Part shown: one piece after another, positions 4,337 through 37,327 of the stretch | Layout of the letters: each line of letters opens with the position of its first letter | Position numbering within the stretch: the first letter of the stretch is position 1 | Origin: a virus | IMG/VR virus record: IMGVR_UViG_3300027782_004716 | Coordinates: 1-41,367 of that record | Reading direction: 5' to 3' (one strand) | Length of the DNA: 41,367 nucleotides | The notes under the pieces: model-generated | Databases searched by the model: none | Seen by the model: the letters and a program-made list of their open reading frames with translations, nothing else | What the model was told of the DNA's origin: nothing | Position numbers and translations under genes: made by a program

Positions 4337-5542
4337 ATGCCATTACAGATTCGCAGGGGCACAGATGCTGAAAGATTAGCGATGACACAGCCGCTGGCTC
4401 AGGGAGAGCTGCTGTATGTAACCAACGCACAGAGATTATATATAGGAAACGGCACTACATTGGGCGGTGTTCAAATCACCGGTTACAACAATGAAGATGC
4501 ACAAGATGCTGCTGCTCTGCTTTTCAGCAACGGCGCACACACTGGGATAAACTTCACATACAACGATGCGACTGCTAGTTTGAGTGCTACGGTCGATTTA
4601 GCTAATTATCAAGGAACCATCGGAGCAACATCTTTCAAGGGTTCTATTTTTGCTGACGATTCTACACTACTAGTGGATGCTGTTTCAGGAACTATAGTAG
4701 GACCTGTAGTAGGCAATATTACTGGAAATCTCACAGGAAATGTTGTCGGTAATGTCACAGGTAATGTCACAGGTAATGTCACTGGTAGTGTGGTTGGCGA
4801 TTTAAAAGGATCAGTATTTGCTGATGATAGCACAGTATTAGTCGACGGTCCTGCTGGGCTGTTACGAGGTCAACTAATTGGTTCAGTAACTGGTTCAGTA
4901 ACCGGCGATGTTAAAGGTTCTATATTTGCTGACGGTTCTACATTGCTAGTAGATGCTATTGCAGGAGTAATTACAGGTGACGTATTAAATATTAATGTTA
5001 CTACAGATAACATTGTCTCGGGATCTATTATTATTAATAGAAATCCCCCAACTAATGGTATTGCTATATATTCAGAAGCATCTCTTGAAGACAACGTTGA
5101 TATTTTTAATATTATCACAGCACACGATGACGCATCTGCATCAGGATTGACATTTACTAGAAGTCGAGGAACAATTGCTGCTCCTACAGCATTAACCGCT
5201 AACAATGAGATTTTTTCTTTGTTATTTGCAGGTCAATCTTCTACTTCGATCGAACCTGCTGTTAGACTTGACGTCAAATTAGATGGCAGTGTTGGAACAG
5301 CGATTGTTCCTGGAAAACTAGTTATCGGAACAGCCAATGCATCGGGAGTGATGACTGATAGATTAACCATCGATTCCAAAGGAATTTCAACATTTGCAGG
5401 CATGGTTACACTGCCAACATATGCCAACGAAGCCGCAGCCAACGCAGCTGTGACAACTCCTGTGAACGGAATGATGTATTATGATTCTGGAGCCAGCAAG
5501 GTCAAAGCACGTCAGGGCGGTGCTTGGGTGGTATTAGCCTAA
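4337..5542 (+). CDS. Tail-fibre/receptor-binding structural protein with repeats
   Basis: This 401-residue protein opens with the phage fibre N-terminal motif (QIRRGTDAERL, residues 4-14; GELLYVTNAQRLYIGNG, 23-39). Three copies of a KGS(I/V)FAD(D/G)ST block follow at about 99-120, 155-176 and 191-212, interrupted by a run of G-N-V-T tetrads (125-153). The C-terminus (PVNGMMYYD...GGAWVVL) is typical of fibre proteins that end in a short beta-structured cap. The repeats suggest a trimeric beta-helical shaft. It is a late gene, and its stop codon overlaps the first island gene on the opposite strand. Confidence 0.85.
   Translation: MPLQIRRGTDAERLAMTQPLAQGELLYVTNAQRLYIGNGTTLGGVQITGYNNEDAQDAAALLFSNGAHTGINFTYNDATASLSATVDLANYQGTIGATSFKGSIFADDSTLLVDAVSGTIVGPVVGNITGNLTGNVVGNVTGNVTGNVTGSVVGDLKGSVFADDSTVLVDGPAGLLRGQLIGSVTGSVTGDVKGSIFADGSTLLVDAIAGVITGDVLNINVTTDNIVSGSIIINRNPPTNGIAIYSEASLEDNVDIFNIITAHDDASASGLTFTRSRGTIAAPTALTANNEIFSLLFAGQSSTSIEPAVRLDVKLDGSVGTAIVPGKLVIGTANASGVMTDRLTIDSKGISTFAGMVTLPTYANEAAANAAVTTPVNGMMYYDSGASKVKARQGGAWVVLA
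4712..4795 (+). repeat. Seven tandem 12-bp units in the fibre gene
   Basis: Units of the type GGTAATGTCACA are repeated in frame, encoding G-N-V-T tetrads. Two central units (4748-4771) are identical and the flanking ones diverge. Such short tandem units can change copy number by slippage and alter shaft length. Confidence 0.8.
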
Positions 5543-6135
5543 TTAAGCAAATACTCAATGTCGTTGCGAAATCTAAAAGTAGCAACGACTCGAGGCTCAT
5601 TGTGCGGATTATATACAGCATGCGGTACATTAATTTTTAATACCGCAGGCGTGTTTAGTTCAAATCTAAAAACTTCGGTAACATTGGTGTGGTCGTGCCC
5701 ACCGCAATTGTATGTGGGATAATACACATCGTCTAATGATTCATTTTTTAATTCATAAAATAGTGTGAAAGAGCCCTCACAGTTCTCCATTGGAATGTTA
5801 ATAGCATTGGTTGGTGGAAAATCTGTTAGCACAGGCACATCATCGAATTTAGAATCTGGATCATCTTGTCTATCTGTATGTATAAACATACTAGAGGAGT
5901 TGGTGTGATCAAGCATCGTTAGGTCATTTTTTAGATTAGTAAAGAAAATTAATTGGTGCATATGCAGTCCCATAGATTCAAATACTGCAATTAACTCCGG
6001 CATGTGCTCTTTTACTTCATTTTCAAAATGGCACCACCACAACGCATCCTTAGGAGTATGGTTGTCTTTGAATTGAATTAATTGATTTCTAAGATCGATC
6101 CAATTTGGAATATCAATATATTTTGCGTATATCAT
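5539..6135 (-). CDS. HxD...H 2OG-Fe(II) oxygenase/cupin-like protein
   Basis: This 198-residue protein has HTD at 86-88, H172 in VPHAVYN, and R182 in RVVATFRF, the order of iron and 2-oxoglutarate ligands in double-stranded beta-helix oxygenases. A 60-residue insert lies between the first two strands. The start at ATG 6135 is preferred over one seven codons upstream because it reduces overlap with the neighbour. It is the last gene of a minus-strand block and shares its stop region with the tail-fibre gene. The substrate is unknown. Confidence 0.6.
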   Translation of the reverse strand: MIYAKYIDIPNWIDLRNQLIQFKDNHTPKDALWWCHFENEVKEHMPELIAVFESMGLHMHQLIFFTNLKNDLTMLDHTNSSSMFIHTDRQDDPDSKFDDVPVLTDFPPTNAINIPMENCEGSFTLFYELKNESLDDVYYPTYNCGGHDHTNVTEVFRFELNTPAVLKINVPHAVYNPHNEPRVVATFRFRNDIEYLLN

Positions 6136-6661
6136 TAAACTGATTATCCTTAACACATAAAGTCAACACTGACCAAAATTTATCAGTGCGATTCCACCCA
6201 TGATGCCATATCACAGGAGCAGCTATTCCTATGGTTTCTTTAAATTTTAAATTCATAGAATCATCTTCTATAACCAATCCTACTTGATCGATATCATTGC
6301 TAGGATTTAATACTCCTGTTATAATTCTAAACGATTCGTCATCGTCATCGCAGTGCCTCGGAATAACACTCTGAGGACTCATGAATATGTACAATGCTCT
6401 TTCTAAATTTTTAATTTTAGATAACAACTTAATTTCCTCTGCAAAAATATTTTGTGTTTTTTTAGAAATTGTTTTTTTTGAAAATATTTCAATTATTTTC
6501 ATATCACAAATTTCTTCAACAGCTACTGGAAAGTCAATATTTTCATTAGTTACATTAGTAATTTCATCAGCCATGTACCTATCTAATACTTCAGATCCCT
6601 TGTCTGCTAATAATTCTGCAATTTTTTCTAAATTGTTTTCAACAGCATATTCTTTAATCAT
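6113..6661 (-). CDS. Aspartyl/asparaginyl hydroxylase-like protein
   Basis: This 182-residue protein has a helical N-terminal half, then IPRHCDDDD (100-108) and a WHHGWNR element (152-158). H103, D105 and H153 or H154 are plausible iron ligands. The pattern is closest to the Asp/Asn beta-hydroxylase branch of 2OG oxygenases, where the second His is followed by Gly-x-x-Asn/Arg. It abuts the glycosyltransferase-like gene upstream (1-base overlap) and overlaps the next oxygenase by 23 bases. Confidence 0.55.
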   Translation of the reverse strand: MIKEYAVENNLEKIAELLADKGSEVLDRYMADEITNVTNENIDFPVAVEEICDMKIIEIFSKKTISKKTQNIFAEEIKLLSKIKNLERALYIFMSPQSVIPRHCDDDDESFRIITGVLNPSNDIDQVGLVIEDDSMNLKFKETIGIAAPVIWHHGWNRTDKFWSVLTLCVKDNQFNDIRKIY

Positions 6662-7845
6662 TACTTAGGTATTCTTATATAAGTCTTAAAATCTTTTGTT
6701 AACAGCCATCGATCAACACTCGCTTGACTAACACTTAATTCATCCTTCAACCATTCGATCAGTTTTTCATTACGGTCAAGAATATCAAACATCACCCTAC
6801 GATTATGATCTATGTCAATATTTATTTGTTCTATATTGTCCGAGACAGTATCTAAAAAATAGCGAGTGTTTGCAACAACAGCATCTAGTCTAGTTTCTTC
6901 ATTTTCGATATAAGCATATTCTGGAGTATGTAGATAATTTTCAAAAGTTTGAAGTCCTCTATGTTTCATAAAAGTAAATCTATCAGGATGATCTGCTACG
7001 ATAAACGGATGGTTGTTAATTACAGCTCGCCAAATCTTTTCAGTTAAAAACTCAAAATCTGTTGCAGGTGGGTAACAACTACCTTCGGATATTATACTAA
7101 CTGATGTATCGTGAAATACATCGGGATCAATCCATCCACAATCATTTAACCAAGGCGAATCAAGTAAACCTCTATCAGCCATCTCTTTACCCGATACCCG
7201 CGAGTAATCTTTTGATACTGTATATTTGTCATCAACTGCACGATCACAGTATTTTAAAAATTTATCATATTGCTCATCTGTATAATGATTGAGGTATTCT
7301 CGACACCACTCTTGGTCATTGCTGGTCCATGGTGGGAAGAAACTCCAAATACCTGTATCAAGTATTTCGGCATCGTAATATTTGCTCATTAGCCCTATGC
7401 GATTTGGTCTAGAAGGCACACCTCCTAGAAATAAAAATTTGCCTGCTGTGGGATTCCATTCATGTACAAGGTGTAATTTGTCTTTGTAACTTTGATACAT
7501 TTGGTTAACTGGAAAATCCCAGTCAAGTATCTCATATGCCAACGACCGCTGGTCTAGATCAGATTGATAGTCTGAGCACATTCCTGGCATCAGATAGAAC
7601 TTTTTAATACCTAGATCTGTTCCTTCTTGATGAATTTTTTTTAATATTGAATAAAATCGATCATTGTCTTTGTATAAAAATCCATCAACTAACAACAGAC
7701 CTACGATACAATCTACATGTTTACTTTCTACCGCTGATTTAATGTCAGCGACCACTAGTTCAATATTCAGTCGATCTAACTTATCTTGATCGTGGTCATC
7801 ATCATAGGTAAACCACAATTCAAAGTTTACCAGTTCAGCTTTCAT
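6661..7845 (-). CDS. Glycosyltransferase-like protein (GT-B C-terminal motif)
   Basis: This 394-residue protein has KFLFLGGVPSRPNR (about 136-149) and then FLTEKIWRAVINNHPFIV (267-284) with a following LQTFENY. The E-K-x-W/F-x-x-HPFI pattern is typical of the donor-binding half of GT10/GT47-type glycosyltransferases and of phage proteins related to them. A nucleotide-sugar donor is therefore likely, the acceptor unknown. The neighbouring oxygenases and amidinotransferase suggest that the transferred or receiving sugar is further modified (inference). It overlaps the next upstream gene by 4 bases. Confidence 0.5.
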   Translation of the reverse strand: MKAELVNFELWFTYDDDHDQDKLDRLNIELVVADIKSAVESKHVDCIVGLLLVDGFLYKDNDRFYSILKKIHQEGTDLGIKKFYLMPGMCSDYQSDLDQRSLAYEILDWDFPVNQMYQSYKDKLHLVHEWNPTAGKFLFLGGVPSRPNRIGLMSKYYDAEILDTGIWSFFPPWTSNDQEWCREYLNHYTDEQYDKFLKYCDRAVDDKYTVSKDYSRVSGKEMADRGLLDSPWLNDCGWIDPDVFHDTSVSIISEGSCYPPATDFEFLTEKIWRAVINNHPFIVADHPDRFTFMKHRGLQTFENYLHTPEYAYIENEETRLDAVVANTRYFLDTVSDNIEQINIDIDHNRRVMFDILDRNEKLIEWLKDELSVSQASVDRWLLTKDFKTYIRIPK

Positions 7846-8336
7846 TTCATTAGTCCTGTTAATTGTATTGCATATCTATTCTTAGTGCTGAAATTATATA
7901 CAGCATGCTCGGCATCGCCAGTCCATGAGAACCAATCGCCCGCCTTCCAATTATTATAAATGTTGTTTACGATCTGTAGGAACTGGCCTCGCTCGCTATC
8001 TTCCAACATTACTATAATGCGCATAATTTTATCTGTGTCTGTGACCTTGTGTATATGTCTCCACCTTGCATATAAATCTCTATGCAGTGGCATGTATTGT
8101 CCGGGCAACACTAGATTTATCGCCGCAGTTAGATTGATCAAAAAATCAAATTTACTTTTAACATAGTCAACTGACACCGGCATAACCTGGGGTTCAAAAT
8201 AGTTGTATAAACACATTTGATTTCGATTATGTCCAGCATCTAAAAAATTATTGAGATAGGTATCGTCGACTGTATCTTGATTATATCTTAAATTAATATA
8301 ATCTTGAATATTCCACTGAGGAGTAATATTATTCAT
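7842..8336 (-). CDS. HxD...H 2OG-Fe(II) oxygenase/cupin-like protein
   Basis: In this 164-residue protein PGQYMPLHRD (about 78-87) gives H85 and D87. A KAGDWFSW strand and EHAVYNF follow, with the distal His near 144, and KNRYAIQLTG supplies an Arg near 154. It belongs to the same island family as the genes at 10285, 14889 and 19464: a short beta-helix core with GD-x-F-x-W before the distal His. ATG at 8336 is the first true start; the frame opens with TTG one codon earlier. Confidence 0.6.
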   Translation of the reverse strand: MNNITPQWNIQDYINLRYNQDTVDDTYLNNFLDAGHNRNQMCLYNYFEPQVMPVSVDYVKSKFDFLINLTAAINLVLPGQYMPLHRDLYARWRHIHKVTDTDKIMRIIVMLEDSERGQFLQIVNNIYNNWKAGDWFSWTGDAEHAVYNFSTKNRYAIQLTGLMK

Positions 8337-8339
8337 CAA

Positions 8340-9395
8340 TTAAAAATAATCTTGAAGCGGGCCTGTACGTTTAACATCTAAAGTAGAACAGTGAAATCCT
8401 CCGCTCATTGTACGTGCCTGACGGCAAGGAAGTCCAATAGATTCAACATCCCACTTGGCTAGTTCTCGACGCAGTTCTTCTTGTTCGATATCACATATAA
8501 CTAATTTCTCATTCACACTTAAGAAGTTTAATCCGATATAAGGACTACATGGTGCTATGCCGCCCGCCATATTTGCTTTTGGCACAGCTAGTCTGTCTCC
8601 GGTAAACCAAATCTTATCCCAGTTTTTAAATATTGCTGGATAGTTATCTGGTGTCACTCGATCTGCATTGAACAATACCAGTCCTGGGCGCAATGGTAGT
8701 ATAGTCGAGTCAAAGTGTGCGAAGCTATAGATCTTTTCAGCAAGATGGATTCTGTAACCTTTTGGTGCGAGTATCGATTGCAACCATTCGAATCCTAGTT
8801 TGTTGCCGCTGTTGCTAACCTGACACAATAGATCTTTGCCTAGGCGTACAACATTGGGAGCATCAAATACGATTTCGTTGTTTAACAGTGTTGCTTCCTC
8901 TAAATGTTCAAGCTGGAAACTGCTATCTTCTAAAATAGGTTTCGGAGCACATATCCACTGAGTCCCGTCTTTCATCTGTTCATACAGATAATCATTGTAT
9001 GCACGAGTTTCAAAGTACCTAGACCGCATAGGACTCGGGCAGTCGATAATCATATTGTCTAAGGGCAAGAGAAGGTCTCGTGGGCAAAAGTTATACCAAC
9101 CAGTGGTCTTCCATTCCGGCGTACTAAATTCTTTAGTGTGATCTAATATTTTAGGGCGATGTACCTTGACCCCAAGACCTTTGAGTGTGTCTGCTAGTCT
9201 ATCAAGATCTTCTTGCCCTTCATCTAGTACCCATTGCTCATGTGTACCTTGTAAGTGCTGAATATCTTCCCACTTCTCTCCAGCATATACAAAACTGTGA
9301 GTGCTTTTGTTTAAAGGCGGCAACAGTGCATTACTACCGACGCCTACAATAATTTCCTCTAACGGATCCCAATCATTATTCGAACTCACTGCCAT
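8340..9395 (-). CDS. Glycine amidinotransferase-family enzyme
   Basis: This 351-residue protein aligns by eye with human AGAT across the catalytic half. GKDLL (186-190) matches the RDIF segment with the catalytic Asp (D188); AHFDST (226-231) holds H227; GGFHCSTLDVKR (332-343) holds nucleophile C336, followed by GPLQDYF like the AGAT end. The family moves an amidino group from arginine to an amine. The acceptor is unknown: glycine, an inosamine or an aminosugar are options. The gene abuts a PLP enzyme with no gap (9395/9396), which suggests amination followed by amidination (inference). Confidence 0.88.
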   Translation of the reverse strand: MAVSSNNDWDPLEEIIVGVGSNALLPPLNKSTHSFVYAGEKWEDIQHLQGTHEQWVLDEGQEDLDRLADTLKGLGVKVHRPKILDHTKEFSTPEWKTTGWYNFCPRDLLLPLDNMIIDCPSPMRSRYFETRAYNDYLYEQMKDGTQWICAPKPILEDSSFQLEHLEEATLLNNEIVFDAPNVVRLGKDLLCQVSNSGNKLGFEWLQSILAPKGYRIHLAEKIYSFAHFDSTILPLRPGLVLFNADRVTPDNYPAIFKNWDKIWFTGDRLAVPKANMAGGIAPCSPYIGLNFLSVNEKLVICDIEQEELRRELAKWDVESIGLPCRQARTMSGGFHCSTLDVKRTGPLQDYF

Positions 9396-10292
9396 TTATA
9401 AAACCCCTGTATGTAAAAATTTATGAAAACTTAATCTGTTTGTCTCTGTTCCTCTGTTGTATTCTTTCCATCGATCATCACCGAGACCAAAGAAAACTGT
9501 ATTGCTGGGACATACATCAAGTTGCTTACAAAACTCTATTTGAAGTGCGTGATATTTATTAGTAATATAATCTACATCAAATTTATCAATAAAATGCAGA
9601 CCCAAGGCAGCACCAAATTTATTATTATAGTTGATTTTATTGTAGACAAACATAGTGTCGTCATTGTCTTCTCTGGTCAACCTTATTCCTATCCTAGCGT
9701 AGGCCAATGGAAAAATTTTAGACAGGCTAAACACAATATCAGTGATACACGGATAACTAACATCGTAAACTAAATCGTAACTAACACCAGAAAATACTAG
9801 ATCAAGCATCACAGGAATATTTTTTTCTGTACACTGTTGCAGAATTTTATCGTGCCATGCGTGTTTAATACCAGTGTCGGCAAATGGGTAGCTGATAATT
9901 ACTGCATCATTAGAATCTAATTCTTCATCTTCAATAAACTTCCAGTCAGGCCAACCAGTGCGCCATGCTATCTGATGATAAACATATTCTCCCTTAAAAC
10001 ATCGAAATCTGCGTGTGCTGTTCTTCATATAGAACTTGTCAAATGATTCGCTGGTTGCTTGAGAGTAATTGATAAATTTAAAATCTTCTAAACCTATGTA
10101 TTTGTTAAGTTCAGTAGATGATATCCATTCTTTGTATCTACTGCAAAACTTTTCTATAATTTCTCGATCGTCGAAAATTGTCTGTAGATTTAAATTGAAA
10201 TTATTTAGATGTGCTATCGCATCTGGATCGCTGATAGCACCTGAACTTCCATAGGGCATCGATCTTTTATCTGGGCTGATATGTTTAGTCAA
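9396..10292 (-). CDS. Compact fold-type I PLP aminotransferase-like enzyme
   Basis: This 298-residue protein has IISYPFADTG (132-141), the cofactor Asp in MLDLVFSG (D164) and the Schiff-base lysine in SLSKIFPLAYARIGIR (K192). This is the class I/II aminotransferase order, but the protein is about 100 residues shorter than usual, with a reduced N-terminal arm and C-terminal domain. The start is TTG at 10292 behind AGGTGA; an ATG at 10259 is the alternative. It has a paralogue at 22320. The amine product may feed the adjoining amidinotransferase (inference). Confidence 0.65.
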   Translation of the reverse strand: MTKHISPDKRSMPYGSSGAISDPDAIAHLNNFNLNLQTIFDDREIIEKFCSRYKEWISSTELNKYIGLEDFKFINYSQATSESFDKFYMKNSTRRFRCFKGEYVYHQIAWRTGWPDWKFIEDEELDSNDAVIISYPFADTGIKHAWHDKILQQCTEKNIPVMLDLVFSGVSYDLVYDVSYPCITDIVFSLSKIFPLAYARIGIRLTREDNDDTMFVYNKINYNNKFGAALGLHFIDKFDVDYITNKYHALQIEFCKQLDVCPSNTVFFGLGDDRWKEYNRGTETNRLSFHKFLHTGVL

Positions 10293-10872
10293 TATAGGTC
10301 ACCTGCATTATAATTAAATCGTCTTTACCGAAGTTACAGGCACCGTGCCAGGTGTCGCCTGACCAGGTAAATGTATCTCCCATCTTCCAACCAGAAAGAA
10401 CATCTCCACCGATTTGGATCACATGTCCGAAACTCCATGGAGTTAACGCTATCACTGTGCGTTTGATTTTATCTGAATCTTTTTGTTCTATTCCAATTTC
10501 TTTAACAAAGGTAGCATAGGTATCAAAGTGCCATACAACCATGTGACCCGATGTTATCTTTAGTAAGTTATAACTATACTTGAAATCTTTAAAATGATCA
10601 AGACACTGTTCGAGTCCGTGTTCAAGCTCAGGTCGAATACTCATATAATGCGTAACCGACTCTGGAGGTATGTTCCAACTGCTATGCAGGTCTTCTAATT
10701 GATACTTGAGATCAGTGGTGTAAATCTTCCAAGGATCTTTGACATCAACTTCTTTGGTTTGTATAACTTCAACCCAAGGCACATCGACCTGATACCAAGT
10801 GCATGGAACATTACCAAATACGACTTCAGGCTTGTTCCAGTTTATATATTTTTCTGTTTGATCTATTTTCAT
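10285..10872 (-). CDS. HxD...H 2OG-Fe(II) oxygenase/cupin-like protein
   Basis: This 195-residue protein has an extended N-terminal 70 residues, then HMVVWHFDTY (110-119; H115, D117), KRTVIALTPW (137-146) and the MGDTFTWSGDTWHGACN strand (164-180; H176). It overlaps the PLP gene downstream by 8 bases and the radical SAM gene upstream by 47 bases, so radical SAM, oxygenase, PLP enzyme and amidinotransferase form one run of genes. Confidence 0.6.
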   Translation of the reverse strand: MKIDQTEKYINWNKPEVVFGNVPCTWYQVDVPWVEVIQTKEVDVKDPWKIYTTDLKYQLEDLHSSWNIPPESVTHYMSIRPELEHGLEQCLDHFKDFKYSYNLLKITSGHMVVWHFDTYATFVKEIGIEQKDSDKIKRTVIALTPWSFGHVIQIGGDVLSGWKMGDTFTWSGDTWHGACNFGKDDLIIMQVTYID

Positions 10873-11812
10873 TTTTTAAAAAATTAATTACAAAATCTTT
10901 GTTTGGGATAAAGAAATTGTCGAGTCTGCTGATAAAATCATCACGATCTTGCTCAGTTAAGTTTGCTACACTTAGTCTATCTGGATAAGTTAATACTCCT
11001 AGGGTCCAAGGAGATTCTATCGACTTTACAAATAAACTCAAATCTTCAAATCCTCCCCAGTTATTAATATGAAGAACTGAATGCACACTGAGATTAAAAT
11101 TGAGATTTTTAATCTGCTGTATAAAAGCTAAAATATCTGTCCACTCACTACCAGACCTCACTTTGTTGTTGAGTTCTCCTACACCGTCGATGCTTAGTAT
11201 AAATGTAACCTTAGATACTATAGACAACGTTTCTATTACATCATTAGTCAACAAGAATGTGCCGTTAGTGTAGTAAGTTAATTCTAACTTGGAAGTATCT
11301 GTAAAAGTTTTTAAAAATCTCATATGACGATTAGTCATTAAGGGTTCGCCGCCCAAGAATGTAATTCGAGTTATGGTGTTAGGCACACTAGTTAATTCAG
11401 ATACTTGTATAACATTTTCTTTGTTAGTCTTGTTTGGGTTTTCAATATTGGCCCAAGCACTACTAAACTCGCCCCAACATCCGTCACAGGTTAAATTACA
11501 GATATTATCAAACCCAATTTCTAGATATTTGAGTTCAACTACCTCGATGTTATAAGCTTCGTTGAATTCCTGTCTAAGACTTTTCTTTCCGAGGGTTTCT
11601 TCCATGTAGCACTTTTGGCATTCAGATATAAATTCCCCGTTGAGACTTTTTTGTCTAAGTTCTTGATATTCAGGAATCGTAAGAACTTGTTCCAGATCTC
11701 CATTAAATTGGGCAATCGGTTTTTTGAATCTACAACAGGGGAATATTCTATCTCCCCCTCTAATATTAGTGTGATTCCAAAATGCAGAACAAAGAGTGTT
11801 ATCTTTCGACAT
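10826..11812 (-). CDS. Radical SAM enzyme with N-terminal twitch/SPASM-like cluster domain
   Basis: This 328-residue protein has the core motif CNLTCDGC at 105-112 (C105, C109, C112) and FLGGEPL (152-158). Before the core lie C8, FPCC (24-27) and CQKC (65-68), which match an N-terminal twitch-type auxiliary Fe-S domain ending in KKSLRQ. The start at 11812 is used because the longer frame runs through the divergent promoter region into the DegT gene. It is the first gene of a minus block. The substrate is unknown, and auxiliary clusters usually mean peptide or protein oxidation chemistry. Confidence 0.8.
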   Translation of the reverse strand: MSKDNTLCSAFWNHTNIRGGDRIFPCCRFKKPIAQFNGDLEQVLTIPEYQELRQKSLNGEFISECQKCYMEETLGKKSLRQEFNEAYNIEVVELKYLEIGFDNICNLTCDGCWGEFSSAWANIENPNKTNKENVIQVSELTSVPNTITRITFLGGEPLMTNRHMRFLKTFTDTSKLELTYYTNGTFLLTNDVIETLSIVSKVTFILSIDGVGELNNKVRSGSEWTDILAFIQQIKNLNFNLSVHSVLHINNWGGFEDLSLFVKSIESPWTLGVLTYPDRLSVANLTEQDRDDFISRLDNFFIPNKDFVINFLKNENRSNRKIYKLEQA

Positions 11813-11842
11813 GAGGAAATTATTTACCCATATGTCACGCAC

Positions 11843-11850
11843 TATAAATA
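11843..11850 (+). promoter_or_regulatory. TATAAATA late promoter-like motif in a divergent gap
   Basis: The exact T4 late core lies in the 46-bp gap between the divergent radical SAM and DegT genes. It ends 8 bases before the DegT ATG, so the transcript would be nearly leaderless. On the opposite strand GGTAAATA (11821-11828) occupies the same position relative to the radical SAM start. Confidence 0.55.
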
Positions 11851-11858
11851 ATTTTCTA

Positions 11859-18725: not shown

Positions 18726-18778
18726 TTAATTTTGTTCCTGTTTGTATTTAAGATAATTAAATTACAGAGGACATACTC

Positions 18779-22279: not shown

Positions 22280-22283
22280 GAAA

Positions 22284-22291: not shown

Positions 22292-22319
22292 TGCTACTAT
22301 AATATGGTTAAATATTTCT

Positions 22320-26015: not shown

Positions 26016-26022
26016 ATACATC

Positions 26023-29682: not shown

Positions 29683-29686
29683 AATA

Positions 29687-30229: not shown

Positions 30230-30788
30230 TAGAAATTCCTAAAAAATGAAAAAGGTAATAGGGTCCTTGACCAGCATTAGTTCCGGCGTGGTAATCTCTA
30301 TAGTGATCCCATTGATAAATTTCGCCTTGTTCTATATTATAAAAACATTCATTGCCCAAGATAAACGCATGAGCAAATTTCGGAGTATCTATAAAACACA
30401 CATAACGAACAAGATTGCCCTGCTCTAACCATTCTGTTTCGTTGTCTTCTACATCCCAATGATATGGAACGCACTGCCCCGGCATTACTTCAGAAATAAA
30501 CACTCGTTTGGGTTCAGCATTAACTATATTTGAAAATGATTCTTGTATATCAATATCAAAATGTTCTCCTGGATAATAATCCCACCATTCGATATTTTTA
30601 AAGTCATAGTTAGCATTCTTCCAGGTTTCCATAATTTCTTTATAGTAACCTAAATTAACATTAGGATCATCCTTGACACGATCAGTTACAGTAGAAGGAC
30701 TGTTGTAATCACCACTGCGAGGTACAAGGCCTGTCATAACGACATCCCAATCAATTAATCCGTTTGTAGATCCAATGCGCTTAGGCAT
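30222..30788 (-). CDS. HxD...H 2OG-Fe(II) oxygenase/cupin-like protein
   Basis: In this 188-residue protein MPGQCVPYHWDVEDNE (102-117) gives H110 and D112, and DHYRDYHAGTNAGQGPYYLF (161-180) gives H167. The Arg or Lys normally found after the distal His is missing, so 2-oxoglutarate binding is uncertain. It arose from the same duplication as 29687. ATG 30788 is chosen because it overlaps the kinase-like gene by only 8 bases. Confidence 0.62.
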   Translation of the reverse strand: MPKRIGSTNGLIDWDVVMTGLVPRSGDYNSPSTVTDRVKDDPNVNLGYYKEIMETWKNANYDFKNIEWWDYYPGEHFDIDIQESFSNIVNAEPKRVFISEVMPGQCVPYHWDVEDNETEWLEQGNLVRYVCFIDTPKFAHAFILGNECFYNIEQGEIYQWDHYRDYHAGTNAGQGPYYLFHFLGISND

Positions 30789-31491
30789 TAAAAATTTCCT
30801 TGTATATATATTCCATGTTCTGATTGCCCCATTTAACATGTTCTTGCATAGAACGTTGAAACATTATTTCTAGGTTGTATTTGTTATCAACAATAGCCCC
30901 GGTTTCAGCCAACCTAAATTTTGCTGACTCGTGTATAATACCATCCATATATTCTGCATCAACGAACGGATCATTGGTAGAAATACCGCCGTACCAATCA
31001 ATTGTTTGCATTTGACCATCTTTAATAAAATGACAATGCGGATACATTGTCAACTTATAAGTACCTTCCTTGAATAGATCTGTCATTATAAAATGCAGTT
31101 GTTCTTTCCAATTGCTACAATAATTATCTAAATTTCTACCACTGTAAATAATTTCATTACAGGTTTCTCCCTGCCACTCAAAAAATACCTGCTTACTATG
31201 ATAATCAATATCTATAATCGTAGGAGTATATGGTTTATCTTTATATTTTAACAGATTATCTATTTCATTTTTCCAAAACCAATCAACTACATTTTGAGTA
31301 TATTTTTCTCTAATAGGATCTTCTTGTCGTTGATATTTGTTTGCCCAATCATAATTGGCACAAAAAATCGTGCCTTCTGGATTCAATAATGGTTCATAGG
31401 TCTGCTGCGACATGCACCTAGTGCCGTCATCGTCTATCTTTAGAAAGGGTATCCAGTTACTAATCGAAGTCACGAACTTTATATCCCACAC
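30781..31491 (-). CDS. Kinase-like fold protein, degenerate (paralogue of 18779)
   Basis: This 236-residue protein starts with GTG, at 31491 or a little later. VVDWFWKNEIDNLL (69-82), YTPTIIDIDYHSKQVFFEWQG (about 89-109) and YKLTMYPHCHFIKDGQMQTI (145-164) match in order the helix, hinge and catalytic-loop segments of the gene at 18779. As there, the HxD catalytic loop is altered (YPHCH), and a final IDW follows. It lies between an oxygenase and the cold-shock/hydroxylase fusion. Confidence 0.5.
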   Translation of the reverse strand: MWDIKFVTSISNWIPFLKIDDDGTRCMSQQTYEPLLNPEGTIFCANYDWANKYQRQEDPIREKYTQNVVDWFWKNEIDNLLKYKDKPYTPTIIDIDYHSKQVFFEWQGETCNEIIYSGRNLDNYCSNWKEQLHFIMTDLFKEGTYKLTMYPHCHFIKDGQMQTIDWYGGISTNDPFVDAEYMDGIIHESAKFRLAETGAIVDNKYNLEIMFQRSMQEHVKWGNQNMEYIYKEIFNA

Positions 31492-32281
31492 GTGGCTGGT
31501 CGCTAAAGAAACAACTGGCTATCCACTTGGTGCCTTTGGTGATTGGTCGACTTTCGTGAATCGTACTCCAGTTCGTTGCTTCATCATACCCTTGTTGAAA
31601 ATATAGAAAAGATCCAGCCTTGGGCTGTATCTCTATATTTAATTTTGGAAAATAAGTTTGGCCGCCTACAAAATTATCATTTAAAAAGAATATACCAGTG
31701 CCGACCCTATCACCGCCGTATCTATAATAGTTTATTTGTTTTGGATCATAGGGGTAATCGTGATGTAGATCTAAATACTGCCCCTCGACATAGTTATAGA
31801 TATCTATGGCTTCGATGTGGCTGTACGGAATTTTAGCAGAATTTACAATTGCTGTGGCCAACATATCGTAATGATAAGGATCTACTCCAAGACTGATTCC
31901 CCTGTTTTCAACCAGTTCTGTTACTTGAGCGTACGACTCTTGTCTACTTTGTGTTCCAGAATTAGGATTCATTCCGTTCCTAGAATGTCGATCGATGATG
32001 CTGTTACATGCTTCGATGGGCAATAGATTATCAAAAACACTTATCCGTGGAATGTTTAAATGTTTGTGTTCAAACACTGAGGAAAGTACGCTAACCTTGA
32101 TAGCCTTACTGCCCTCATCTACTTCTATCCTTTCAAACGATACCTGTTGAAGTTCAAATAATACCTGAGGGTCTTGGTTTATGTCCCATTTTTCTACCAA
32201 GATAGAAGATCCATCGTTATCCGATAAGATAAATCCATAGTCTTTAGCATCGTTAAACCATTTAACTATTCCGGTTTCCAT
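31460..32281 (-). CDS. Cold-shock domain fused to a prolyl 4-hydroxylase-type oxygenase
   Basis: In this 273-residue protein, residues 1-66 are a cold-shock domain: METGIVKWFNDAKDYGFILS holds the RNP1 motif, SILVEKW the degenerate RNP2, and QQVSFE...KAIKVSVL the last strands. Residues 75-262 are a P4H-type domain: YLDLHHDYPYD (169-179; H173, D175), GTGIFFLND, GGQTYFP, IHESRPITKGTKWIASCFF (241-259; H242, K252). Cold-shock domains bind single-stranded RNA/DNA, so hydroxylation may be directed to a nucleic acid or to a protein bound to one (inference). Start ATG 32281, TAATG-coupled to the methyltransferase. Confidence 0.88.
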   Translation of the reverse strand: METGIVKWFNDAKDYGFILSDNDGSSILVEKWDINQDPQVLFELQQVSFERIEVDEGSKAIKVSVLSSVFEHKHLNIPRISVFDNLLPIEACNSIIDRHSRNGMNPNSGTQSRQESYAQVTELVENRGISLGVDPYHYDMLATAIVNSAKIPYSHIEAIDIYNYVEGQYLDLHHDYPYDPKQINYYRYGGDRVGTGIFFLNDNFVGGQTYFPKLNIEIQPKAGSFLYFQQGYDEATNWSTIHESRPITKGTKWIASCFFSDQPRVGYKVRDFD

Positions 32282-32871
32282 TATTGTTTTCCAATGATCA
32301 TAAATCGTTTGTACAATGGCAATTCTAATTCTCCTGCCCAAATAATATCGATCTGGCACTGTTTTTTAAATTGTTCTAAATCTGCGGCAATGCGAACATG
32401 TTCTGGTATATTATAATTATTGCTTTGCAGAACTAACAAACTATTGTGCGGCATGCCACTCAACCACAGATCGTATTGTTCTTGAGTTATGTGTTCGCAA
32501 CTGGTATTAATAATTACGTCTGCATCACTGCGAATGGCACACATGTCTGCAGTAACAGCATGAAACTTCCCACTCATTTCTTCTTTTTTGTTCATCATAG
32601 TGGCAATAGGTTGACAACTAGGATCAATATCAACACTACGAATATTTGTAATATAAATGTCACTTTGAAACAGCATGCTGGCCAATGTTCCTACCCAACC
32701 GCCATGTATATCTATACTTACAAACTTATTAACGTTCTTACGTAGATTAGCAATCAACCATTCTTTGCTTTTTAGTTGGCCGCTCCAAAACGCATCCATA
32801 GTACGTATGGGGTCTGGACTTTGCCTAATGGCCTGCATCCAATAATGTAGGTGTTCGGTGTCAATGTCCAT
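32281..32871 (-). CDS. Class I SAM-dependent methyltransferase
   Basis: This 196-residue Rossmann-fold protein has KFVSIDIHGGWVGTLA (49-64, motif I), IRSVDIDPSC (77-86, motif II with acidic residue for the SAM ribose) and ADVIINTSCEHI (117-128, motif IV). It belongs to the small phage methyltransferases with TSCEH; the target is unknown. The ATG at 32871 overlaps the DUF2061 stop by 11 bases and the stop is shared with the cold-shock/hydroxylase start, so expression is coupled. Confidence 0.75.
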   Translation of the reverse strand: MDIDTEHLHYWMQAIRQSPDPIRTMDAFWSGQLKSKEWLIANLRKNVNKFVSIDIHGGWVGTLASMLFQSDIYITNIRSVDIDPSCQPIATMMNKKEEMSGKFHAVTADMCAIRSDADVIINTSCEHITQEQYDLWLSGMPHNSLLVLQSNNYNIPEHVRIAADLEQFKKQCQIDIIWAGELELPLYKRFMIIGKQ

Positions 32872-33070
32872 ATTGACCCCATTTAATTTTATTCCAAATC
32901 CTTTCATGTATAAAATACAAAATTGTATTCGAAATTAATTGTGCCATAGCGATCGAACCTGCAATAACAAAATTACCAGACACAATATACGATATTGCAA
33001 ACGTAGCTCCACTACCAGTTATCCTCCAACTGACAGTTTTAACTAGACTGCGGACAGCACGATCACTCAA
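32861..33070 (-). CDS. DUF2061 small membrane protein
   Basis: This 69-residue protein has RSLVKTVSWRITGSGATFAI (7-26), which matches the DUF2061 opening, then two membrane segments (about 21-33 and 36-55) and the HERIWNKIKWG end. In bacteria DUF2061 is often found near or fused to APS kinase genes (known association); here it overlaps the APS-kinase-like gene by 8 bases. A role in sulfate or PAPS handling at the membrane is inferred from that association. Confidence 0.82.
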   Translation of the reverse strand: MSDRAVRSLVKTVSWRITGSGATFAISYIVSGNFVIAGSIAMAQLISNTILYFIHERIWNKIKWGQYGH

Positions 33071-33854
33071 GACCTAATTCCTTGCGAATTTTTGTAGCAC
33101 TGATGTCAGTTATCGACTCGTCAAAAGTTTCTTCCCCTGCGGTATATCCCACACCACGACCCCAGCCGATATGTACAATATTAGGAACAACCTGTATTTC
33201 ATATTGTCCTTGATACAATGGATCTAAATCATGTTTGATAAAACCTTTGACTTTAGCTACTTCAAATGGATTACTACCTTGCCATCCTTGTACATCACGT
33301 ACTTGAATAATCACCTGTCCGGTCTTGGCCAATAATCTTTCAAATAATGCACGATGACCAGCATGCCAGGGTTGCCAGCGTCCTAGCATCTGTACTGTTT
33401 CTTTCTTCCAATCAAATACTGGGCGCCTACGATCGTCTACGATATGATTGGCAATAAAATCTGACCACTTGTCTGCGTTCTGCTCTGTAACACGGAAATC
33501 GTATATCTCTGGTTCAATAAACATGGCATTAGTATCTGCGTAACGACCTTCACGAATAGTATCCATCCAAATAGTCCAGTCTGCTTTGAAGTTGTTACGC
33601 ATTTCAACTAAAGGAGCCACAAAATCAGCAATGACATAATCACTTTCTAATCTAGTGGATAGGTCATACATACGTTTACTTTGTCTAATACGTCCTGCTT
33701 CTGTAAAATCCCAGTCGTTGTATTCTTTACGAACTTCATCTGCATTAAGCCATTCAACTTTCTTACCCGAATCACTCAATAGTTTTTTAAGTTTTTCTGC
33801 TAATGTTGTTTTACCTGCGCCAGGTAATCCCATAATTAGTACACGTTTAGTCAT
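33063..33854 (-). CDS. APS-kinase-like/nucleotidyltransferase fusion
   Basis: In this 263-residue protein, residues 1-140 form a CysC-type kinase: Walker A GLPGAGKTT (9-17), LNADEVR (36-42), EAGRIRQSKRM (52-62). Residues 150-263 form a HxGH nucleotidyltransferase: GRWQPWHAGH (158-167) and ISATKIRKEL (251-260). The kinase half would phosphorylate APS to PAPS. The C-terminal half is too short for ATP sulfurylase and looks more like an NMN/cytidylyl-transferase type. AAAGGA inside the preceding gene end serves as ribosome binding site. Confidence 0.78.
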   Translation of the reverse strand: MTKRVLIMGLPGAGKTTLAEKLKKLLSDSGKKVEWLNADEVRKEYNDWDFTEAGRIRQSKRMYDLSTRLESDYVIADFVAPLVEMRNNFKADWTIWMDTIREGRYADTNAMFIEPEIYDFRVTEQNADKWSDFIANHIVDDRRRPVFDWKKETVQMLGRWQPWHAGHRALFERLLAKTGQVIIQVRDVQGWQGSNPFEVAKVKGFIKHDLDPLYQGQYEIQVVPNIVHIGWGRGVGYTAGEETFDESITDISATKIRKELGLE

Positions 33855-33855
33855 A

Positions 33856-34803
33856 TTATATTTCCTTTGTATTTTCTATATGCTTATCTGCCCTTATATC
33901 GGCACCACAATCACACCTAAACTTATCACAGATTACAGATTCCTGTAAATTATCTATGTTAATACTAGTTATGTTGCCTAGATCAATCATTCCACAATTA
34001 CTCCAACGGACATTACCTAATGCATCTATGATTAAGTTTTCTTTCCCTGAATAGCAACGCCATCCATAAAAATTATGATCATCGTTTTTCATTAATTGGT
34101 CTGGATCTAATACCGATTGGGAACCATCATCATATATTGCAATAGTATCGGTATCTTTTAACCAACTATGAGAAACAGTTAATTCGGTATGTCTCTGGTC
34201 TGTAAACTGCCACCTCGGCGAAGTATTTAAAAACTCTAATTGCTCCGGAGTCCATTTTGTAAAATAGTCAGCGCCGGCCCAATTGCTAACAGGTTTGATC
34301 AATATTATTTTAATATTTTCCAAAGATTTTAATTGTTCAAACCACGACACTGCTAAGTCCCAATGTTTGGGATCCATCATGATGTAAACTATGACAAAAC
34401 TTTGATCTGTTAATACTTTTATTTTTTCAAGATCAAATTTATGCTGACTTGGATGCATGGTTAAGCACCAAACATCTACTAGATTCCCAACTTCTTTATA
34501 AAATCTCGGAGTTCTAACATTATTGCTGTCTACTTTAATTTTGATATCTAGGTCTTTTATCATCTTTAAAATATCAATAAACTGAGGATGGGTAGTAACT
34601 TCACCACCGGTGAGATTTAATAAAATAGGTTGTTTAATTTGACTAAAGAAATTTTTATAAATCTTCAGGTCGATATTATGATGTTTGCCTGTTCTAAAAT
34701 GCGGAGGGCAATATTCGCAGGCATAGGTGCAGTTGGTTGTCATCTGCCAGGTAATTTTCATTGTATGACTGTTGCCCGACTTAATTTTAATTATTTTTTT
34801 CAT
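33856..34803 (-). CDS. Radical SAM enzyme with C-terminal cysteine-rich (SPASM-like) tail
   Basis: This 315-residue protein has core CTYACEYC (25-32) and NLTGGEVTTHP with Val in place of Pro in GGEP. The tail has WRCYSGKENLIIDALGNV, SNCG, LGNI, ICDKFRCDCGADI, the same order of landmarks as the paralogues at 25119 and 36347. It lies between the sulfotransferase-like gene (17-base overlap) and the APS-kinase fusion (1-base gap). A second in-frame ATG at codon 15 is an alternative start. Confidence 0.8.
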   Translation of the reverse strand: MKKIIKIKSGNSHTMKITWQMTTNCTYACEYCPPHFRTGKHHNIDLKIYKNFFSQIKQPILLNLTGGEVTTHPQFIDILKMIKDLDIKIKVDSNNVRTPRFYKEVGNLVDVWCLTMHPSQHKFDLEKIKVLTDQSFVIVYIMMDPKHWDLAVSWFEQLKSLENIKIILIKPVSNWAGADYFTKWTPEQLEFLNTSPRWQFTDQRHTELTVSHSWLKDTDTIAIYDDGSQSVLDPDQLMKNDDHNFYGWRCYSGKENLIIDALGNVRWSNCGMIDLGNITSINIDNLQESVICDKFRCDCGADIRADKHIENTKEI

Positions 34804-35419
34804 TTAATCTGCTAATTTTATCTTGCCATTCATCTTCAAAGGATGTTAACACCATTTGTATTTGTTCTACAGCCCAATCAAAATTTGTTATAAATTGATA
34901 TTTTTTATGACTTTGTTGATCATCAGTATTCATTAATGCAGTATCGAAGTATTCGCTAGGATAATTTTCTAGACTTATTATTTTGCCATTTTGAGGATAG
35001 TGTTTAAGATAATTTTTTATTTCTAACACCATTGACTGAATATCGTTTTCATCTATTGAAAATTTAAACGGGTCAACTTGATTTCTTTTATTATAACCAA
35101 ATCTTTCTGCCATAAAAAGGCTCAGAAACATGTGTATTCTATCTGACCTTTCTACAACAAACACATCATAAATGTTATTATCAAGAACCGAATTATACCA
35201 ATTAGAGATTAACGAAGATCGTTCTATGTGAGCACCATGTATTTTTAAAACCGCATTTGGATCATCAACTTTATAAAATGCTTTTTTAACCGCAGTTTCA
35301 TTTAAAATATCTAAATTTGATTCTGAAAAGATTTCATCTTTTAGTATAGCTCGACGACAAGAATAAAATAGCACCGTTGCTCTAGTTCTAGGAAGGGTAT
35401 ATAACATCACAGGTTTCAT
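34787..35419 (-). CDS. Sulfotransferase-like protein
   Basis: In this 210-residue protein the N-terminal VMLYTLPRTRATVLFYSC (4-21) looks like the 5'-phosphosulfate loop of PAPS-dependent sulfotransferases, and VFVVERSDRIHMFLSLFMAERF (about 87-108) resembles the 3'-phosphate site with R-x-D and following Ser. The usual C-terminal RxGxxG is not found. With an APS-kinase-like gene three genes away, a PAPS-using transferase is a coherent reading (inference). ATG 35419 overlaps the previous stop by 4 bases. Confidence 0.6.
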   Translation of the reverse strand: MKPVMLYTLPRTRATVLFYSCRRAILKDEIFSESNLDILNETAVKKAFYKVDDPNAVLKIHGAHIERSSLISNWYNSVLDNNIYDVFVVERSDRIHMFLSLFMAERFGYNKRNQVDPFKFSIDENDIQSMVLEIKNYLKHYPQNGKIISLENYPSEYFDTALMNTDDQQSHKKYQFITNFDWAVEQIQMVLTSFEDEWQDKISRLNEKNN

Positions 35420-35763
35420 AATTCTATTTTGGGATCGCTGATCTCCCATCCTTTTTCTATTAACGCATTTTTAAATTTTAAAAATGTTTCATGATTAAAA
35501 AAATAATCCACAAATGGATTTATTTGATCAGGAGTTTCCCAAACTGCAATCATTGTTTTAGTCGCTGTGTCCCATCCCTGTAAATTTAAAGGATAACTTC
35601 TTACTCTATAATCAATTTCGCTCTGGCGCTGCCAAACATCAAAATCAAATAGAAAATCTTCACTGTATTTTTCAAGTAAGATATTTTCAATTATAGAATC
35701 AAATTGTTCGTAATCGTTACAATCAGTCTGTTGATTTGAGATTTTAATTATACACTTTTGCAT
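35416..35763 (-). CDS. Protein of unknown function
   Basis: This 115-residue acidic alpha/beta protein is rich in Phe, Asp and Trp (DFLFDFDVWQRQSEIDYRV; MIAVWETPDQINPFVDYFF). No family is recognised. It overlaps the SGNH gene by 16 bases and the sulfotransferase-like gene by 4, so it is a translated member of the run, possibly a partner of one of them. Confidence 0.55.
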   Translation of the reverse strand: MQKCIIKISNQQTDCNDYEQFDSIIENILLEKYSEDFLFDFDVWQRQSEIDYRVRSYPLNLQGWDTATKTMIAVWETPDQINPFVDYFFNHETFLKFKNALIEKGWEISDPKIEL

Positions 35764-36359
35764 TTTAAATTAATATATTGTAAAATTTCTTCGCTGTAAA
35801 TTTCTTGACATTCGTGTCCTGGATGGCGCATATCTAAAGCCAATGGATTTTTCTTTTTTAATTGTTCTAGATAAATTGGAATATGGTCAATTGTCGATCC
35901 CTCTAATGTTAGAAATTTTATTGCCTGTTTATTAAAAACAAGATTATATGCTTCTATATTTTTCACATTTAAAAAATTGTTAGCATGATTAATAAACAAT
36001 TTAGACATTAATTCCATATCGTGTTGGTCATATAAATCTTTATAAAATGTATGTCCTGTCCACGGCCCTATACTTTCAACTTCTGTTTTTCTAATTATAG
36101 CTGTTCGATCAGGGAAACTCCATAATACAAAAACAATATCATTAGGCCTATAAGAAAATTTAATTATATCGTTCCATATTCTTTTATTACTTGCACCAGG
36201 ACTTGATTCATTGATACAAATCCTATTCATCTTTTTCGCTAATATTGAAGGCCAAGATAAAGCACTGGGATTTTCACCCGGATGATTTGGAGGTATATGA
36301 CAATCAGACAGACCGTGCCCATAAGTCAACGAACAACCAAATGCTATTAATCTTTCCAT
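35748..36359 (-). CDS. SGNH/GDSL-type hydrolase
   Basis: This 203-residue protein has block I FGCSLTYGHGL (7-17, Ser10 nucleophile), block II GASNKRIW (about 55-62, Gly/Asn), block III-like VLWSFPDR, and DMRHPGHE (about 176-183) with the Asp and His of block V. Such enzymes remove or transfer acyl groups on carbohydrates or lipids. This fits a glycan-related island. No signal peptide is present, so it acts in the host cytoplasm. It overlaps the radical SAM gene upstream by 13 bases. Confidence 0.78.
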   Translation of the reverse strand: MERLIAFGCSLTYGHGLSDCHIPPNHPGENPSALSWPSILAKKMNRICINESSPGASNKRIWNDIIKFSYRPNDIVFVLWSFPDRTAIIRKTEVESIGPWTGHTFYKDLYDQHDMELMSKLFINHANNFLNVKNIEAYNLVFNKQAIKFLTLEGSTIDHIPIYLEQLKKKNPLALDMRHPGHECQEIYSEEILQYINLKCKSV

Positions 36360-37327
36360 TTTGGCACCTTGCTATCTGCTGAGCTGACGCAACTGGGTGT
36401 AATACAGAGGTGTGGTTCTTTAAACAATTCGAACCGATCTAATGTTCCCAAAGAAACATCGTGACAACTGTAGCTGCGTTTAACTTCGTTACTTCTAATT
36501 ATAACACTTTGATATCCACTATTGCAACCCCAGCCTTGAAATTTATTAAATCCAAAAGCATTAAAACGTTCTGCCTGATCAAATAGATATTCTTGCCCTG
36601 CATGGTCGTATAGTGCAATTTGAAAAACATCTTCGCCTTGTGCTGTTTGAGGGAACCCAGTTTGCAACAGACTGATCATTTCTTCTGTGTAACCATCTAC
36701 CACACGACTGGCAGTGGGATCGCTCTGTGGTTTGAGTGTTACATTGATGCCTCGAGCATGCAATCTACTCATTCGGTCATACAGTTCATAGAACTGTTCT
36801 GGAACCATAACTTGATTAACTGTGACATGTACACGTTCGTATATCAACTGTAAACACTTGTCACCAAATTCTTGTTCCTTGGCAAACTCTGCATGAAAAC
36901 TAGCAGTTATACTTCTACGCTGTAATAGTTCTGTATTTCGACACCATGTATTCCACCATTTACTACCTGGACTTAGATTGGTGGTCATATGAATACTTTG
37001 ATAGGTGCTTTCTGTTTCGTCTAGGTGTTTGACCAAATCAGTTAACTGTTTGTAAGCAGTGGGTTCGCCACCACTGAAGCTCCAATGAAATTCATTAAAT
37101 CCATTTTGTCGAGCTTGCCGTTTGATTTCGTCTATGGTGTTGGTATAGACTTCGAATGGCTGATAATCCATCCTGTCACTGCGAGCATAGGGCCAACAAT
37201 AACTACAATTATAATTACAGAATCTTCCTAGGATCCAACTAGTAGAAAATAATGGACGATTCAACATTGTGCGTTGTCCAAATCTTATTATATTGTCAAA
37301 TGGTATCTTTGTGAAGTCTTGTGTCAT
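36347..37327 (-). CDS. Radical SAM enzyme with C-terminal cysteine-rich (SPASM-like) tail
   Basis: This 326-residue protein has core CNYNCSYC (37-44) and WSFSGGEPTAY. The tail has WGCNSGYQSVIIRSNEV, YSCHDVSLGTLD and LCITPSCVSS. It is related in layout to 25119 and 33856. The start at 37327 is preferred to one 14 codons upstream that would extend into the promoter region. GTTAAATACT lies 9-18 bases upstream (minus strand) and may be its late promoter. It is the first gene of the 9.4-kb minus-strand run. Confidence 0.8.
   Translation of the reverse strand: MTQDFTKIPFDNIIRFGQRTMLNRPLFSTSWILGRFCNYNCSYCWPYARSDRMDYQPFEVYTNTIDEIKRQARQNGFNEFHWSFSGGEPTAYKQLTDLVKHLDETESTYQSIHMTTNLSPGSKWWNTWCRNTELLQRRSITASFHAEFAKEQEFGDKCLQLIYERVHVTVNQVMVPEQFYELYDRMSRLHARGINVTLKPQSDPTASRVVDGYTEEMISLLQTGFPQTAQGEDVFQIALYDHAGQEYLFDQAERFNAFGFNKFQGWGCNSGYQSVIIRSNEVKRSYSCHDVSLGTLDRFELFKEPHLCITPSCVSSADSKVPKWKD

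Follow-up and report, generated by a model that had tools for sequence, protein, structure and literature searches.

Gene content of the island

The window analysed here is a 41.4-kb virus fragment from IMG/VR (record IMGVR_UViG_3300027782_004716), whose genes are numbered w1-w60 along its length. Positions 5539-37369 hold an island of about 43 densely packed, partly overlapping genes on alternating strands (given below as + or −), including radical S-adenosylmethionine (rSAM) proteins, 2-oxoglutarate (2OG) oxygenase-like proteins, pyridoxal phosphate (PLP) enzymes, amidinotransferase-like proteins and a QueC-like ATPase. A first-pass annotation had already described an enzyme island at this position. 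Its coordinates were right, with the last gene ending at 37369, and the island is real: its enzymes are matched by Pfam, PHROG, NCBIfam and profile-profile comparison (hhalign), on which our annotation is based, and its content, order and motifs are kept in many diverged contigs.

The eight rSAM proteins reported previously all lie above the Pfam cut-off and all contain an intact CxxxCxxC motif. They form three groups. The first, with an N-terminal twitch/SPASM-like domain, consists of w17 (10826-11983, −; Radical_SAM E 1.5e-9), w22 (15350-16513, −), w23 (16510-17913, −) and w33 (23825-25126, +; Pfam SPASM E 8e-9, Radical_SAM E 3e-8). Both w23 (390 bits, E 1e-116) and w22 (230 bits, E 4e-68) exceed the curated 170-bit cut-off of NF033640 (N_Twi_rSAM); these scores cover w22 and w23, and w17 and w33 were placed with the N_Twi rSAMs by profile comparison. 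The second group contains w34 (25089-26015, +; E 7e-13), which has a C-terminal Cys-rich domain and an extra invariant Cys, w48 (33856-34803, −; E 1.8e-7) and w52 (36347-37369, −; E 7e-12), which has 381 viral relatives and forms the right border of the island. The third is w39 (28418-29500, −; E 5.6e-8).

The count of 12 oxygenase-like proteins also stood, but only three of them, w19 (12911-13663, +; E 9e-8), w26 (19464-20024, +; E 1e-7) and w44 (31460-32359, −), pass the curated Pfam cut-off; w44 is a fusion of a cold-shock domain (E 2.6e-11) with an oxygenase domain (2OG-FeII_Oxy_3, E 3.3e-9). Four more have weaker matches, bringing the range for all seven to E 3e-9 to 8e-3, i.e. w11 (6113-6661, −; Asp_Arg_Hydrox, E 2.6e-4), w13 (7842-8339, −; E 2.7e-3, with hhalign links to w16 and w21), w21 (14889-15383, −; E 7.8e-3) and w30 (21611-22279, −; E 1.8e-3, start trimmed from a longest open reading frame (ORF) reaching 22555). 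Profile-profile links assign w16 (10285-10872, −; 100% to w13), w41 (29687-30229, −; 100% to w42 and 99.9% to w21) and w42 (30222-30839, −). For the remaining two the assignment rests on a conserved HxD...H motif, found in all 12 homologues of w24 (17913-18725, −; H177xD179, H236 and R249 invariant) and in 6/6 homologues of w10 (5539-6156, −).

Family matches, hhalign and motifs likewise support three PLP enzymes and two amidinotransferase-like proteins. The former are the DegT-family aminotransferase w18 (11796-12914, +; E 8.9e-96, true start probably downstream) and the paralogues w15 (9396-10292, −) and w31 (22269-23177, +), which match each other at 100% in hhalign and have a conserved Asp and SxSK Lys (invariant Asp175 and Lys203 in w31, whose start is also probably downstream). 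The latter are w14 (8340-9395, −; 35% identical to that of phage S-SCSM2R, E 4e-50) and w36 (26321-27526, +; hhalign 99.3% to w14, motif WHCLT), both with HxD and HCxT. The two short-chain dehydrogenase/reductase (SDR)-like proteins, w28 (20555-21154, −; E 0.025, linked to w29 by hhalign) and w29 (21151-21618, −; E 3e-4), have weak matches.

Other parts of the first-pass inventory needed revision. Instead of one glycosyltransferase-like protein there are two candidates. The AlphaFold2 (AF2) model of w20 (13638-14894, +; pLDDT 81) is GT-A-like by Foldseek, and its best structural matches suggest a resemblance to collagen hydroxylysine glycosyltransferases (LH3 E 4e-5, COLGALT1 E 5e-5, mimivirus R699 E 6e-4; TM-scores 0.22-0.27). 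A weak match makes w12 (6661-7845, −; AF2 pLDDT 82) a probable GT-B-like glycosyltransferase (MurG E 0.012, prob 0.97). The SGNH-hydrolase-like protein w51 (35748-36359, −; homologues at 35-39%) has the motif, FGCSLT by eye, but no Pfam match. The proposed sulfation module, based on 3'-phosphoadenosine-5'-phosphosulfate, found no support. Its kinase candidate w47 (33063-33854, −) is a P-loop kinase and nucleotidyltransferase fusion (RWQPWHAGHR; PF01583 E 5e-12) that few relatives carry, and is not a proven adenosine phosphosulfate kinase, scoring 39 bits against the 139-bit cut-off of the equivalog TIGR00455; w49 (34787-35449, −), a possible sulfotransferase-like P-loop protein from a motif seen by eye, matches no relevant Pfam family. 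Additional to that inventory are the kinase-fold proteins w25 (18779-19474, +) and w43 (30781-31491, −), whose joint profile matches TTK kinase (E 2.7e-6), the methyltransferase-like w45 (32281-32907, −; identified by reading and through a homologous gene of phage Mosig that is annotated as a methyltransferase) and w38 (27968-28417, −), which is ATE_C-like (arginyl-tRNA-protein transferase; E 1.1e-5, above cut-off). PDB profile searches with w12, w20, w23, w27, w31 and w32 were empty or weak.

The remaining island genes are w27 (20027-20581, +), perhaps acyltransferase-like, with 10 relatives at 40-82% identity and no PDB match; w35 (26023-26355, +), a DUF6614 protein (E 2e-23); w37 (27486-28004, +), a phage protein (phrog_10325, E 2e-17); w46 (32861-33070, −), a small putative membrane protein (hydropathy 1.65); and w50 (35416-35763, −), which has no Pfam match and a homologue at 60% in the relative G001. 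We also searched the island for the precursor of a (proteusin-like) ribosomally synthesised and post-translationally modified peptide and found no convincing one; only w40 (29500-29682, −) recurs, a conserved 60-aa protein between w39 and w41 with homologues in five relatives, no Pfam match, no Cys and no obvious variable core, which is possibly an accessory or leader-like protein.

A conserved core and exchangeable cassettes

Relatives of the island (G-numbered below) were sought among metagenomic contigs, which may be incomplete and whose ORFs were called by a simple script. A tblastn search with w23 returned 25 viral contigs, the whole records of which contain 7-15 rSAM domains each, mostly in a single block. 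The 163-kb contig G001 has an island almost colinear with that of the window, including the strand switches, and most genes are 57-93% identical. The median ratio of nonsynonymous to synonymous substitution (dN/dS) of reciprocal-best pairs was 0.098 for the window and G001, 0.064 for G011 and G013 and 0.156 for G005 and G007, values that are rough because synonymous sites are near saturation; in each case the island resembles the remainder of the contig. The catalytic motifs are almost always intact in homologues: CxxxCxxC in 104/106 rSAM proteins, HxD...H in all oxygenases tested, SxSK in 16/16 PLP enzymes, HxD in 15/15 and HCxT in 13/15 amidinotransferases, and the PP-loop in 9/9 ATPases.

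We then compared 38 dereplicated viral loci that were selected by w32 and have full 10-kb flanks. The genes w23, w30, w33, w34 and w39 were present in all 38, their products being 30-88% identical to those of the window, followed by w45 and w42 (31/38 each), w52 (29/38), w24 (27/38) and w31 (24/38). Loci selected independently by w52 gave a similar picture within 10 kb, with w45 in 20/20, w39 and w23 in 19/20 each, w34 in 17/20 and w33 in 16/20. These gene sets point to a core made up of the rSAMs w23, w33, w34, w39 and w52, the methyltransferase-like w45 and the oxygenase-like w30, usually with w31 and w32. The invariant core with its kept order and strand, the low dN/dS indicative of purifying selection and the intact motifs led us to reject random accumulation. 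The coordinated enzyme system proposed in the first-pass annotation is therefore supported; frequent pseudogenes and an unrelated distribution of the genes among relatives were both looked for, and neither was found.

Around this core the gene content differs among relatives, and cassettes are gained and lost. Several genes travel in pairs: w36 and w37 occur together in 6/6 loci, w24 accompanies every w25 (22/22), w42 accompanies 20 of 21 w43 genes and w19 accompanies 18 of 20 w20 genes. With an oxygenase joined each time to a glycosyltransferase-like or a kinase-fold partner, the w24, w42 and w19 pairs suggest that hydroxylation may be succeeded by capping. The island edges of G005 and G007 are extended by genes for DHQ-synthase-like cyclase, nucleotidyltransferase-like, cupin-like and SGNH-like proteins, suggesting the supply of sugar or cyclitol building blocks, and relatives' islands also encode an epimerase, UDP-glucose dehydrogenase, RmlD, a carbamoyltransferase and an AMP-ligase.

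The QueC-like ATPase w32 (23161-23892, +) belongs to the operon w31-w34, of which w31 is the first gene. Its identification as QueC-like was borne out by a PHROG match (E 2e-4) and by one orthologue that matches PF06508 (E 4.9e-5, below cut-off); w32 itself has no Pfam match. In the alignment the two motifs expected of QueC, an SGGxDS PP-loop and a four-Cys zinc motif, C(x)nCxxCxxC, are invariant, and neither the canonical YPDC motif (PMC13329287) nor a deazaguanine-binding motif was seen. The gene is part of the core in most lineages, and since it has been lost in some (G004, G010) it is common, not obligate. We found at least 496 viral relatives and, scanning 84,980 species genomes of bacteria and archaea, a single match, a ratio that is only indicative because the two scans used different degenerate patterns. 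The cellular match (27% identity) lies on contig NHBR02000105.1, binned as Muricauda. We rejected Muricauda as a bacterial source or host: the contig holds long tail-fibre-type repeat proteins and, by reading, a similar island (rSAM, QueC-like, ligase and SDR-like genes, of which Pfam confirms two rSAMs and the AMP-ligase), and is therefore most likely a misbinned phage. No homologue of w32 was found among named phages. As judged from these scans, w32 would represent a nearly virus-only enzyme family.

Genomic neighbourhood and related phage clusters

The left border of the island is formed by the tail gene w9 (4337-5542, +), which has an Mtd_N match in Pfam (E 7e-9) and GNVTG-type repeats. 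A w9-related gene also borders the island in G001, G002, G003, G004 and G010, and in G001 tail-fibre and baseplate-connector PHROG proteins lie further upstream. For the 364-kb relative G013 the nearest terminases are those of jumbo myophages, e.g. PA5oct and Phosso (52%). The word ATAAATA is the core of T4-type late promoters, and in the jumbo phage CBB it has been proposed as a late promoter ahead of structural genes (PMC5259590). This word is rarer than expected in the window (6 observed vs 20.6 expected), and over ten contigs 87 of its 151 sites, including 19 of the 42 inside islands, are correctly oriented and 5-45 nt ahead of an ORF start. Twenty permuted words used as a control were so placed in 5.7% of cases overall (maximum 14%) and 3.7% within islands (maximum 6.3%). 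Sites lie ahead of w9 (CATAAATAC, 34 nt upstream), w18 (TATAAATA at 11843), w25, w29 and the w30 region (TATAAATA just upstream of w30). The position of these promoter-like words indicates that the island is probably expressed late. Scans for sigma-70 promoters and terminators gave chance-level results. A scan for Ser/Thr/Gly-repeat proteins as likely substrates found them at island borders, but was not decisive because such proteins also occur far from islands.

Several further features were seen in the flanking regions. Genes for tRNA-Met, tRNA-Gly and tRNA-Thr lie at 961-2018, close to the left island border, and short ORFs resembling those read within tRNA genes flank the island in G011 and G013. 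Outside the island, w3 (1380-1958) matches a PHROG 2OG-Fe(II) oxygenase (E 8e-6) without having the HxD motif, and w4 (2004-2531) has a metalloprotease-like motif (AHEMVH) and matches a PHROG without assigned function. At the right border, w53 (37341-37643) is a conserved ORF with a strong hydrophobic stretch that may be antisense or spurious. G001 encodes curlin-like Asn/Gln/Gly repeat proteins at 128.6-131.7 kb, which recall the curli cluster of pelagimyophages (PMC7029224), and shares a 2480-aa protein with G003 (ORFs 080 and 020, respectively). As a candidate for VrlC this protein was compared with named phages, among which the first 655 aa in G001 had no match.

Smaller versions of the island occur in Mosig EXVC030M, S-SCSM2R, KVP40 and K566. 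The earlier statement that no such phage system had been described was too strong, because smaller multi-rSAM clusters are present in CP220/CPt10, 332-Vera and pelagimyophages, some of which include an amidinotransferase or lie in a tail-fibre region. Campylobacter phages CP220 and CPt10 encode 11-12 rSAM proteins, and in them five rSAMs, a putative amidinotransferase and nucleotide-sugar-transferase-fold proteins are clustered as an exchangeable module (Timms et al. 2010, PMC2853527). The island resembles them in combining several rSAMs (eight) with amidinotransferases (two) in one block, and homology is detectable (amidinotransferase 30%; rSAM 22.8%, E 3e-4). However, the CP220/CPt10 cluster has 10-12 genes as opposed to about 43, and no annotated 2OG-oxygenase array or w32-type ATPase was found there.

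In pelagimyophages, rSAM cassettes lie within the host recognition cluster (HRC), a region between VrlC and gp14 that cyanomyophages also have and that in Pelagibacter phage Mosig EXVC030M encodes 2OG/Asp_Arg_Hydrox proteins, aminotransferases, MoaA-like rSAMs, a methyltransferase, a carbamoyltransferase and an acetyltransferase (PMC7029224). Several of its genes are homologous to island genes, and the island is likewise hypervariable and set within a tail region, as seen from its Mtd_N-type border, the tail PHROGs of G001 and the variable cassettes; Mosig differs in its MoaA-annotated (rSAM-like) genes, three against the eight rSAMs of the island, and in having no w32 homologue. Aeromonas phage 332-Vera has eight rSAM genes inside a structural/tail-fibre cluster (PMC12390700) but, going by the published description, belongs to the Chimallinviridae (phiKZ-like). 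Vibrio phage KVP40 (0254-0261, 0272-0274) has a QueC-like gene, three rSAMs akin to the N_Twi group (hhalign 99.6-99.7%) and a PF00534-annotated protein (glycosyltransferase group 1), yet this cluster is small, has no annotated 2OG array, and its QueC-like protein, compared as a single sequence, is not detectably alignable to w32. The nearby KVP40.0254 (5225-5818 of the excerpt), which adjoins the QueC-like and rSAM genes, has a long Ser/Thr/Tyr/Arg repeat and is a possible substrate. The literature searched, which mostly excluded subscription papers and preprints, contained neither a proven function for any multi-rSAM phage cluster nor a description of the present system. Compared with the known clusters the island is much larger, has a defined core and includes what appears to be a nearly virus-only enzyme family.

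Candidate roles of the island

The first-pass annotation had named a virion, glycan, peptide or nucleic acid as the possible target of the island enzymes. Modification of a virion component is favoured by the late-type promoters, the tail neighbours, the lack of membrane or export proteins (among the island proteins, hydropathy gave neither a transporter nor a clear multi-pass membrane protein, w46 being the only possible membrane protein) and the virus-specific core; the sulfated group also envisaged has, like the sulfation module, no support. The smaller rSAM clusters of other phages also belong to regions for tail fibres or host recognition (PMC12390700, PMC7029224; Mosig). We propose that the island, placed in the tail/host-recognition region of a large T4-type phage, could be expressed late and act as a chemical-decoration system. 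The conserved core would make or install an unusual chemical group, which the cassettes would tailor, i.e. oxygenase with glycosyltransferase-like protein (w19-w20), oxygenase with kinase-fold protein (w24-w25 and w42-w43) and the amidinotransferases (w14 and w36). During virion production the group would be attached to a protein of the virion or a glycan linked to the virion, e.g. a tail or receptor-binding protein, and the benefit may be altered adsorption or resistance to host or environmental attack. We consider the case for such a modular factory, building an unusual group and attaching it to the virion, to be about evenly balanced.

Several observations weigh against it. The PDB matches of the rSAMs cover the generic core only and so fit substrates of any kind, peptides and sugars included; no w9-type tail gene was seen at the island border of G005, G007, G011 and G013, which were inspected by simple motifs; and the large subunit of ribonucleotide reductase also has a late-type promoter word, i.e. 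non-virion genes can have them. With regard to capping, w25 and w43 have no obvious catalytic Asp, and the TM-scores of the w20 structure matches are low.

A more specific version of this proposal draws on the QueC-family protein Cap9 of type IV CBASS (cyclic oligonucleotide-based antiphage signalling systems), which joins a carboxylate to a protein N-terminus, as is also proposed for Qat (PMC13279940, PMC13329287). Like Cap9 and QatC, w32 has an SGGxDS PP-loop and a Cys-rich, zinc-type site; unlike them, it is divergent in sequence, its 7-carboxy-7-deazaguanine-binding motif was not seen, and no CBASS or Qat partner genes were seen. In this version a dedicated, near virus-only pathway would hypermodify the phage's own receptor-binding apparatus: w32 would join a carboxylate or amino compound made by the rSAM and PLP enzymes to an amine of a virion protein, as Cap9 does with deazaguanine, and the oxygenase-transferase pairs would hydroxylate and cap. 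We regard this scenario as unlikely; if true, it would add a new class to viral post-translational chemistry, one that arose outside cellular metabolism.

Alternatively, the enzymes may alter the surface glycan of the infected host (lipopolysaccharide or capsule), e.g. to block superinfection by competing phages. Such a role has been proposed for the HRC glycosyltransferases of pelagimyophages (PMC7029224), and the sugar-nucleotide enzymes of relatives' islands (epimerase, UDP-glucose dehydrogenase, RmlD, DHQ-synthase-like) would suit it. However, the island has no polymerase, flippase, lipid-linked or multi-pass membrane enzymes, and the late-promoter-like sites would leave little time for host remodelling, so we think this unlikely. 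The toolkit of aminocyclitol and guanidino natural-product clusters is similar to that of the island (DegT, amidinotransferases, rSAM, SDR, 2OG), and together with the carbamoyltransferase and AMP-ligase of relatives it could speak for a diffusible small molecule (natural product, cofactor or toxin) made during infection or at lysis. That is quite improbable, as no exporter, carrier protein or self-resistance gene was found in the island, w32 has almost no cellular homologue at the sensitivity used, and the tail-gene neighbourhood would go unexplained.

The QueC-like nature of w32, with FolE and QueD each in 7/14 large relatives, is what could be expected if the island hypermodified phage DNA or an RNA, e.g. 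with a 7-deazaguanine derivative. Yet a TGT-family transglycosylase (PF01702) was found in 0/14 of these possibly incomplete records and no ThyA-type enzyme in G001, G003 and G013, and with the missing YPDC motif and the late-type promoter sites we judge this very unlikely. Finally, a hypervariable region collecting unrelated metabolic genes with no joint function would account for the variable gene content and the passing cassettes, but the core, gene order, selection and motifs described above make it highly improbable.

Decoration of the virion is therefore the role that we favour for the island. As early as 2010 phage rSAM clusters were described as 'highly unusual', and no function has been proven for them. 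One such cluster now has a conserved, selected and largely virus-specific core that occurs in hundreds of viral contigs, and its core and swappable genes can be named. The question can thereby be put to the test in cultured phages, and may yield new enzyme chemistry and a new kind of virion modification.

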